From contig NZ_CP045488.1 of assembly GCF_009392895.1 (NCBI RefSeq), forward strand, positions 2,542,001 through 2,606,000: a stretch of 64,000 nucleotides of DNA. The letters run 5' to 3'. Origin of the DNA: Natronorubrum aibiense (GTDB lineage Archaea; Halobacteriota; Halobacteria; Halobacteriales; Natrialbaceae). Numbering within the stretch: position 1 is the stretch's first letter; each line of letters begins with the position of its first letter. The translations under genes and the position numbers were made by a program. The notes below the pieces were generated by a model. The model was not told where the DNA came from, made no database searches, and saw nothing but the letters and a program-made list of their open reading frames with translations. Shown one piece after another: positions 51,035 through 53,553 of this stretch.

Positions 51035-51221
51035 GGGTTGCTGTCCATTCGTCAACGGTCGGTGCGTAAAAACTTGCTGAGATCCGCCCAGTTCGTGCGT
51101 CGAGCGGTGAACGAATTCGGACTCCTCGTGGGGACACCAGTCGATATCGTTCCACCGAATGGCATATACGCTGGACGAACAGTCCGATATTCTCTTAACG
51201 TCGCACCTATTATCCCAGTTA

Positions 51222-51656
51222 ATGGCAGTTGAAGCTACGAGCGCAGGCGCGATCCTCTTCCGCGATACGCGGGGCCGGCGCGAGTATCTTCTACTCAAGA
51301 GCCGCCCAGGCGATTGGGAGTTTCCCAAGGGCGGTGTCGAAGGAGATGAAGAGCTACAGCAGACGGCGATCCGCGAAGTAAAGGAAGAGGCAGGTATCGA
51401 GCAGTTCCGGCTTCTCGACGGCTTTCGTGAGGACTACAACTACGTCTTCGAGGCGAACGGCACGACGATCCACAAGACCGTTCACCTCTTTATTGCGAAA
51501 TCGTTCGAGGCCAGTGCGGAGCTATCAAACGAACATCGGGACCTTCAGTGGCGCGACTACGAGCAGGCAGTCAACACCGTCACACAGGATGGGCCACGCG
51601 AAATCTTAGAGCAGGCCCACGAGTTCCTCGACGACCGCGAGGAAGACGAGGAGTAG
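51222..51656 (+). CDS. Nudix hydrolase, Ap4A-hydrolase-like
   Basis: A 144-residue Nudix protein. The Nudix box GGVEGDEELQQTAIREVKEEAGI (about residues 37-59) is complete: GX5EX7REUXEEXGU with the metal-binding glutamates. Upstream comes SAGAILFRDTRGRREYLLLKSRPGDWEFPKG, typical of bis(5'-nucleosyl)-tetraphosphatases, which cleave Ap4A-like alarmones; other NDP-X substrates are possible. The tail EFLDDREEDEE is acidic. ATG 51222 is preferred because the longer in-frame start reads through a divergent promoter region with A+T-rich TCTCTTAACG. It faces the uS10-like gene, about 190 bases away. Confidence 0.87.
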   Translation: MAVEATSAGAILFRDTRGRREYLLLKSRPGDWEFPKGGVEGDEELQQTAIREVKEEAGIEQFRLLDGFREDYNYVFEANGTTIHKTVHLFIAKSFEASAELSNEHRDLQWRDYEQAVNTVTQDGPREILEQAHEFLDDREEDEE

Positions 51657-51851: not shown

Positions 51852-52898
51852 GTGGACCGCGCACTGAGCGAGTTCGAGTTCGAACTCCGGTGTTGTCGCT
51901 GGGCCGAACGGGCCTGGCCGCCGACCGAGTCGGCCAGTGGCAACCACGCGATTGTCGCCCGTCAACTCGGCACCAAACGCCGCCGCTGGGACACGATCGT
52001 CCTCGAGTGCGATCCCGAGGCTCTCCGCGAGCGCGCGAAGTTCGGCCGCGAACGACTCGATAGCGATCTCTTGCATCTCGTCCGCAACGCGCCTGACGAC
52101 TGGACCTACTATCGCGACTGTCTCCCCGAGCCCGGCTACCCGTGGCGCTACGTCCGCGAGGCGATTCATCGGGCCGACGATCGCGGCATTCTCGAGACCC
52201 GAAAGCGCGGGAATCGCGTTCAGATTCGCCGGAAATGGCCCTATCCCGACTGGCTCAACCGGATCGTCGCGATCGAGAACAAACCCGACCTCAACGCCAG
52301 CGCGGCCCGCGCGCTCGGCTCGCAACTCGAGTACGACGTCGCCGTCTCGCTAGCTGATGAGGTCTGGGTCGCGACGCGGGCGACGGGCGACAGCGTCGAA
52401 CCCGCGCTGTTCGAGGACCTGCCGGTCGAAGCGGGTATTCTCACGCTCGAGCCCGACACGCTCGCCGCCGAGGTCGCGTGGTATCCCCGAACGCTCGCCG
52501 TCGACGAGCCCGGCACGCGCATCCTCGAGCGACCGGACGGCGGCGAGCGGGACGGCTCGGCGGCCCGTTTCGAGTACGTCGAGCCCGCGTCGAAGGCCGA
52601 AAAACGCCTCGCGATCGCCGAACGCGCCTACGAACGCGGCTGGCGCTCGTTCGTCGAGACGATGCGCCCCGACTGTCGACACTTCGAGTTGCGCGCTCGA
52701 GACGGCACGCAACTCCAGCCGCACTGTGCAGCGAAAGAAGGCTGTCAGACGGCTGCAGCGTGCTCCAGCCGCTGTGCCGACTTCGAACCGGAGCCGCCGG
52801 GCTGGCGGACGCGAGGCTGGCCGATCGAGGGTGGCCCCGGGAAGCGCTGTCAGCAGTTACTCGCGGATCGGCGCCGGCGCCGTCGACCGGGGATATAG
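51852..52898 (+). CDS. DUF5787-like protein, candidate PD-(D/E)XK-type nuclease
   Basis: A 348-residue haloarchaeal protein; I place it with DUF5787 by overall appearance, with moderate confidence. It has cysteines C14, C15, C53, C90, C275, C292, C298, C304, C308 and C333; the C-terminal five to six form a possible metal or Fe-S cluster. The middle contains WDTIVLE (D47), then IENKPD with E142-x-K144, and SQLEYD with Q158 and Y161. This resembles the D...ExK...QxxxY residue pattern of the PD-(D/E)XK nuclease fold, and a cysteine cluster alongside it recalls Cas4/AddB-type enzymes. This is inference from motifs; no activity is shown. Start is GTG 51852, as no in-frame ATG occurs early. Confidence 0.72.
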   Translation: MDRALSEFEFELRCCRWAERAWPPTESASGNHAIVARQLGTKRRRWDTIVLECDPEALRERAKFGRERLDSDLLHLVRNAPDDWTYYRDCLPEPGYPWRYVREAIHRADDRGILETRKRGNRVQIRRKWPYPDWLNRIVAIENKPDLNASAARALGSQLEYDVAVSLADEVWVATRATGDSVEPALFEDLPVEAGILTLEPDTLAAEVAWYPRTLAVDEPGTRILERPDGGERDGSAARFEYVEPASKAEKRLAIAERAYERGWRSFVETMRPDCRHFELRARDGTQLQPHCAAKEGCQTAAACSSRCADFEPEPPGWRTRGWPIEGGPGKRCQQLLADRRRRRRPGI

Positions 52899-52899
52899 C

Positions 52900-53403
52900 T
52901 CAGTCGGAGACTGCGACCTCGAGGTCTTCGCGGTCGACGGCCAGTCGGAACGTGGGGACCGTTCGGTAGACGACTTCGACGACGTCCTTGCGCCGAAGGC
53001 TCTGCAGTCCCGAACGGACGTCTTCGGCCTCGGGGTCGACGTCGAACTCGTCGCGGAGTTTGTGCAGGACCGACACGACGCTCTCGGACTCCTCGTCGGG
53101 GCCGGCCAGCACCGACACGATCTGGGACTGGAGCTCCGGGACGCGGATCTTGGAGGGCGGACCCTCGTCCTCGGGATCGCTCTCGATACCGGGTTCGACG
53201 TCGACGAGGTCGGCCGCCTCGCTCGTCGCCCGAATCAAGCTGTTGTCGTCGCGAAAGTAGTAGTCGCCGAGTTCGTTCTCCAGATACTGGTGGACCTCAC
53301 TGCCGCTTTCCATCCCCCACCGCTCCTGTAGCTCTGCGTTCTTCGTCGGCTGTAGCTCCACCACGTCTGCCAATCGGTCTGTGGCCTCCTCCGAGAGCGT
53401 CAT
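52900..53403 (-). CDS. DUF5797-like winged-helix protein
   Basis: A 167-residue acidic protein beginning MTLSEEATDRLADVVELQPTKNAELQERWGMESGSEVHQYLENELGDYYFRDDN. The N-terminal ~65 residues form a likely winged helix with the recognition helix around GSEVHQYLENEL. The C-terminal half (residues 95-160) is a second small alpha/beta domain with VPELQSQIVSVL and DVRSGLQSLRRKDVVEVVYRT. I recognise the haloarchaeal family DUF5797, of unknown function; a DNA-binding role is only inferred. ATG 53403 is the conserved-looking start. Tail to tail with the DUF5787-like gene, the stop codons one base apart. Confidence 0.75.
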   Translation of the reverse strand: MTLSEEATDRLADVVELQPTKNAELQERWGMESGSEVHQYLENELGDYYFRDDNSLIRATSEAADLVDVEPGIESDPEDEGPPSKIRVPELQSQIVSVLAGPDEESESVVSVLHKLRDEFDVDPEAEDVRSGLQSLRRKDVVEVVYRTVPTFRLAVDREDLEVAVSD

Positions 53404-53553
53404 CGTCGAAGCGTATGCGGATCCGCTACTTTTGCGTTGCGTCCCGTCGCCTCTTGAGTGGCGCCGACCGCGGATCATACGGCCGCCCGTCCGTCAGTGC
53501 CGATGCGTCTAGATAGTCTCGGGACCACCGGCAAATCGTTCCAACAGACCGTC

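Follow-up and report, generated by a model that had tools for sequence, protein, structure and literature searches.

DUF5787 proteins of Halobacteria as predicted PD-(D/E)XK nucleases in two ancient paralogues, one of which carries a putative PCNA-binding box

The DUF5787 proteins are probably PD-(D/E)XK DNA nucleases that occur throughout the class Halobacteria as two ancient paralogues, of which paralogue B would be delivered to DNA by PCNA and paralogue A would act independently of PCNA. Paralogue A is the one encoded in the window, the 64,000-nucleotide stretch of Natronorubrum aibiense DNA. From residue conservation, structural models, profile comparison and the C-termini of the proteins we infer the fold at the atomic level, the nuclease activity, the DNA substrate, the identity of the metal and the binding to PCNA. 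No paper on these proteins came up when the literature was searched for DUF5787 and related terms.

The DUF5787 gene in the window

The open reading frame at 51852-52898 (+) is real; it starts with GTG and codes for 348 amino acids, and all residues named in an earlier note on this DNA are present in it at the positions given there. The assignment to DUF5787 made in that note was right, as PF19100 matches residues 34-313 (406.6 bits against a cut-off of 25, E=8.6e-122) over model positions 1-278 of 278. The gene, its parts and its two neighbours are as follows.

51159..51656, forward strand: NUDIX hydrolase gene, upstream of paralogue A on the same strand (86/100 A loci)
51852..52898, forward strand: DUF5787 paralogue A, predicted PD-(D/E)XK nuclease, 348 aa (PF19100, E=8.6e-122)
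51870..51914, forward strand: helix alpha-1, EFxFExxxCxxxE, with E7, E11 and E19 invariant (core model and conservation)
51894-51896, forward strand: codon of C15 (Ser or Ala instead in three B homologues)
51945..52010, forward strand: beta-1 and beta-2 with RQLG...R44-x2-D47 (core model and conservation)
51990-51992, forward strand: codon of the putative catalytic Asp D47 (conservation)
52074..52232, forward strand: winged-helix-like insertion, residues 75-127, between D47 and ExK (predicted secondary structure and top Foldseek hits)
52254..52343, forward strand: beta-3 and helix with the ExK and Q motifs (core model, conservation and sce7726 alignment)
52275-52292, forward strand: E142-N-K144-P-D-L, within the beta-3/helix part
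52323-52337, forward strand: Q158-x3-D162, within the beta-3/helix part
52674..52775, forward strand: C-terminal Cys4 site with C275, C292, C304 and C308 (invariant, 88/88)
52803..52895, forward strand: tail of paralogue A, a conserved W-P-I-E-G-G-P-G followed by an Arg-rich end, without PCNA box
52900..53478, reverse strand: DUF5797 gene, convergent and downstream of paralogue A (92/100 A loci)

Conservation and predicted fold of the catalytic core

Conservation was analysed in 88 distinct homologues (46 A and 42 B), which were collected by HMM or BLAST with the motifs ignored in their choice. D47, E142, Q158 and D162 were present in all 88 proteins and K144 in 87. Paralogues A and B share only ~27-36% identity, yet the catalytic residues are common to both. 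The conserved D followed by E-x-K that is expected of PD-(D/E)XK proteins is found in this order as D47, E142 and K144, and the core that had been proposed from D47, the E142/K144 pair and Q158 is supported. The motif QLEY (Q158, Y161), which the same proposal had included, was a coincidence, since Y161 is variable; the conserved motif is Q158-x3-D162. The single protein deviating at K144 is a paralogue B (L087) with ENNPDL for ENKPDL, i.e. K144N, which may be a natural variant, a decayed copy or a sequencing error.

The full-length structural model was poor (pLDDT 42). An AlphaFold model of the core only (residues 1-183) was of moderate confidence (pTM 0.60, pLDDT 59) and yielded the element order H7-21, E32-41, E44-53, winged helix, E135-143, H149-164 and E170-174. 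D47 is part of strand 2, E142 closes strand 3 with K144 directly behind, and the helix that comes next bears Q158 and D162. The element order supports a match to the topology of the PD-(D/E)XK core, alpha-beta-beta-beta-alpha-beta, with one domain predicted to be inserted between D47 and E-x-K. Foldseek searches of the PDB with the full-length and the core-only model gave nothing significant, so the agreement with known folds is one of predicted topology and falls short of structural proof. Winged-helix proteins made up nearly all top hits of the full-length model, and no hit reached E<=0.001. Those of the core model, likewise non-significant, include several PD-(D/E)XK-like folds (Bax1, the Cas4-like ACE1, Card1, Can2, viral cap-snatching endonucleases, tRNA-splicing endonuclease), which are not countable as evidence. 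Sequence and profile searches of the PDB returned nothing meaningful and reached no solved structure.

A winged-helix insertion is typical of regulators, and together with K144N in one B protein it might suggest that the DUF5787 proteins are catalytically dead members of the fold, acting as DNA-binding regulators or scaffolds with a winged helix and a zinc site and keeping the core for structural reasons only. We consider this unlikely, as D47, E142, Q158 and D162 are invariant in 88 divergent proteins and K144 is kept in 87, as would be expected of an active site but not of a scaffold.

Profile similarity to the sce7726 family

Further support for a nuclease core came from the sce7726 family (NF033832), for which a profile was built from 11 proteins of plasmids and phages. 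Direct matching to the NCBIfam model stayed far below its curated cut-off of 70 bits, the best match being 12.6 bits (E 0.095) over the E-x-K region. Comparison of DUF5787 with sce7726 by hhalign, however, yielded scores of 38-43 with a probability of 75-85%, whereas shuffled-column decoys scored <=22 and the reversed profile ~10. In the alignment the ExK motifs of the two families coincide, Q158 falls on the Q of sce7726, and D and P...G further on also line up; it covers the E-x-K/Q half only (60-72 columns, ~E142-G195), with the D47 half lying outside. Among the 11 sce7726 proteins D, E and K are invariant and Q is found in 10/11, within QxxxY, the Tyr of which aligns with D162 of the DUF5787 motif Q158-x3-D162. 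As sce7726 is itself uncharacterised and received no Pfam PD-(D/E)XK assignment in the searches made here, the link favours a nuclease core but does not establish it. The reading of the protein as an uncharacterised haloarchaeal nuclease, offered in the earlier note, is supported, short of proof, by the invariant residues, the predicted order of elements and the sce7726 profile link.

Proteins resembling sce7726, of ~284-293 aa, were also observed in four genomes that all belong to a single other family of the phylum (L255-L258; L255 on the + strand). They contain a long Cys-containing insertion between the strand bearing D (RFGMFDLAVY) and FEFKSDHD, and three of the four end in what looks like a shortened PIP box (QSTLKF, QKTLF, QSRLF). 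Judged by these sequences, they possibly represent a parallel architecture outside the Halobacteria.

The conserved cysteines

The C-terminal cysteines C275, C292, C304 and C308 were each found in 88/88 homologues with the spacing C-x16-C-x11-C-x3-C. C15 was present in 85/88 and is replaced by Ser or Ala in three natural B proteins (L086, L088, L092), all of which keep the four C-terminal cysteines. C14 is not conserved, the position being mostly V, T or L, and C298 is a Cys in only 23/46 A proteins and never in B. The cysteine groups named earlier were therefore confirmed in part. Of the N-terminal pair (C14, C15) only C15 is largely retained, and the C-terminal group stands with the omission of C298. 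The invariance that the earlier note suggested testing holds for D47, E142, Q158, C275, C292, C304 and C308 and, with one exception, for K144 (87/88), but not for C14 and C298 and not strictly for C15.

Following the earlier analogy to RecB/Cas4/AddB-type iron-sulfur nucleases, the protein could be a nuclease of the Cas4/AddB/Dna2 type, in which C15 and three C-terminal cysteines would hold a 4Fe-4S staple and which would resect single-stranded DNA as an exonuclease. Cas4 and AddB indeed form their 4Fe-4S staple from one N-terminal and three C-terminal cysteines (PMC3466216), and DUF5787 combines a PD-(D/E)XK-like core with C15 in helix 1 (85/88) and clustered cysteines at the C-terminus. Nevertheless, C15 is lost in three homologues and four rather than three C-terminal cysteines are invariant, and therefore a one-plus-three staple does not fit. 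In addition, the spacing differs from the CxxC-x5-C type of haloarchaeal Cas4, the invariant motif after ExK is Q158-x3-D162 in place of QxxxY, and the haloarchaeal Cas4 profile did not match DUF5787 (hhalign score 12-13, below the shuffled decoys). The analogy was rejected on the pattern of cysteine conservation and the absent profile similarity, and we regard a nuclease of this type as quite improbable. The simplest reading of the sequences is that the four C-terminal cysteines form a self-contained Cys4 site, which may bind zinc or an iron-sulfur cluster.

Distribution of the two paralogues

DUF5787 was detected in 144/145 Halobacteria genomes with two or three copies each, among them Haloferax volcanii. 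The only genome lacking it (G021, 1.9 Mb, same order) is also without a NucS_C match, which might reflect loss or an unusual lineage. The copies fall into two groups, paralogue A and paralogue B, and the genome of the window carries its B copy at G000:C1:1683835-1684842. Searching with paralogue B gave matches in 34/35 Halobacteria and no relative among 162 sampled genomes that belong to the phylum but lie outside the class. A viral or mobile origin was considered as well and rejected, as no relative was found in IMG/VR. The 46 A sequences cluster as a single group (support 0.91) in a quick FastTree tree, which is consistent with one duplication older than the sampled families.

C-terminal tails and the putative PCNA box

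The C-termini separate the two paralogues. Each of the 42 distinct B proteins has at its C-terminus a match to Q-x-x-h-x-x-aromatic with the consensus QSGLD[RQ]F, in which Q and L are conserved to 100% and F to 90%, while most columns of the preceding linker are conserved to 30-60%. Among 114 distinct A tails the PCNA box was found in none (0/114). The published haloarchaeal PIP consensus is QxxLxxFx (PMC7776575), and in the same genome FEN1 and PolY, both named from sequence, end in QTGLDRWT and QLSLTDFS. PIP-like C-termini occur by chance as well, e.g. in a superoxide dismutase and a reductase of the same genome (both named by sequence reading). As a single C-terminal match is therefore weak evidence, the argument rests on the conservation over 42 B proteins. 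On this basis a PIP box is predicted for B that would bind PCNA and that points to DNA transactions. This strongest functional clue applies to paralogue B, since the gene in the window is the member without the box.

Gene neighbourhoods

The NUDIX hydrolase encoded upstream of paralogue A shows 79-98% identity across the class (median 90%), far above the conservation of DUF5787-A itself. DUF5797, the convergent neighbour, is also a protein of unknown function. Paralogue B lies near a gene for an MBL-fold hydrolase in all 15 sampled loci, and in ~10/15 of them apparent genes for eIF2-gamma, a PIN-domain protein and RNA polymerase E' are nearby; all four were named by sequence reading. The position of B beside translation and transcription genes in most sampled lineages, and of A beside a NUDIX hydrolase, would suit a nuclease whose substrate is RNA and which might serve RNA turnover or quality control. 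Gene neighbourhood alone, however, is weak evidence for a substrate, and the PCNA box of B argues for DNA; we judge an RNA nuclease very unlikely.

Proposed function

We propose that D47, E142 and K144 form a metal-dependent active site, with Q158 and D162 located in the helix behind it, that the winged helix between D47 and E-x-K would grip duplex DNA, and that the four C-terminal cysteines would bind a structural metal, either zinc or a 4Fe-4S cluster. Through its C-terminal PIP box, paralogue B would be brought to DNA by PCNA, and it probably cuts DNA in replication-coupled repair, like NucS/EndoMS and FEN1. Paralogue A has the same putative catalytic and metal-binding parts. As it lacks the PIP box, carries its own conserved tail (WPIEGGPG and the Arg-rich end) and lies beside a highly conserved NUDIX hydrolase, it most likely acts independently of PCNA, presumably on a related DNA substrate.

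The presence of two paralogues with invariant active-site residues in essentially every sampled haloarchaeon, in a family for which we found no paper, makes A and B strong candidates for core genome maintenance. The PCNA box would locate B to replication forks or sites of repair, and a version with such a clamp-docking tag suggests an overlooked replication or repair nuclease. If active, A/B would count among the few non-core archaeal PCNA clients (NucS, NreA/B, TIP) and provide a new nuclease for Haloferax volcanii, a model system of archaeal DNA repair. More speculatively, and in our view less likely than not, A and B might be an overlooked pair of PD-(D/E)XK nucleases with an inserted winged helix that is used throughout the class, B being tethered to PCNA and A being free, and might together constitute a class-specific pathway of replication-coupled DNA repair.

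Comparison with known systems

The protein in the window is a full-length member of PF19100 (DUF5787), an entry that gives the function as unknown. The Pfam model begins at residue 34 and leaves helix 1 with C15 outside, and the entry neither splits the two paralogues nor mentions the PIP box of B. The sce7726 proteins (NF033832), of plasmid, phage and chromosomal origin, resemble DUF5787 in ExK, Q-x3, D and P...G; they differ by QxxxY in place of QxxxD and lack both the winged-helix insertion between D and ExK and the conserved Cys4. Moreover, the members fetched were located on bacterial plasmids and phages, whereas DUF5787 belongs to core haloarchaeal chromosomes. Cas4/AddB/Dna2 nucleases share with DUF5787 an active site of D, ExK and Q, predicted in the latter, and clustered cysteines, but have the 1+3 cysteine arrangement and QxxxY, as opposed to four invariant C-terminal cysteines, QxxxD and no helicase in DUF5787. 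NucS/EndoMS (PF01939) is an archaeal PCNA-bound PD-(D/E)XK nuclease; unlike DUF5787, it has a separate N-terminal Sm/OB-like domain and neither the winged-helix insertion nor the Cys4 site. In the profile comparison with NucS, decoys scored above the real match owing to a poor NucS alignment. Matches to the NucS_C family coexist with DUF5787 in 53/59 genomes.
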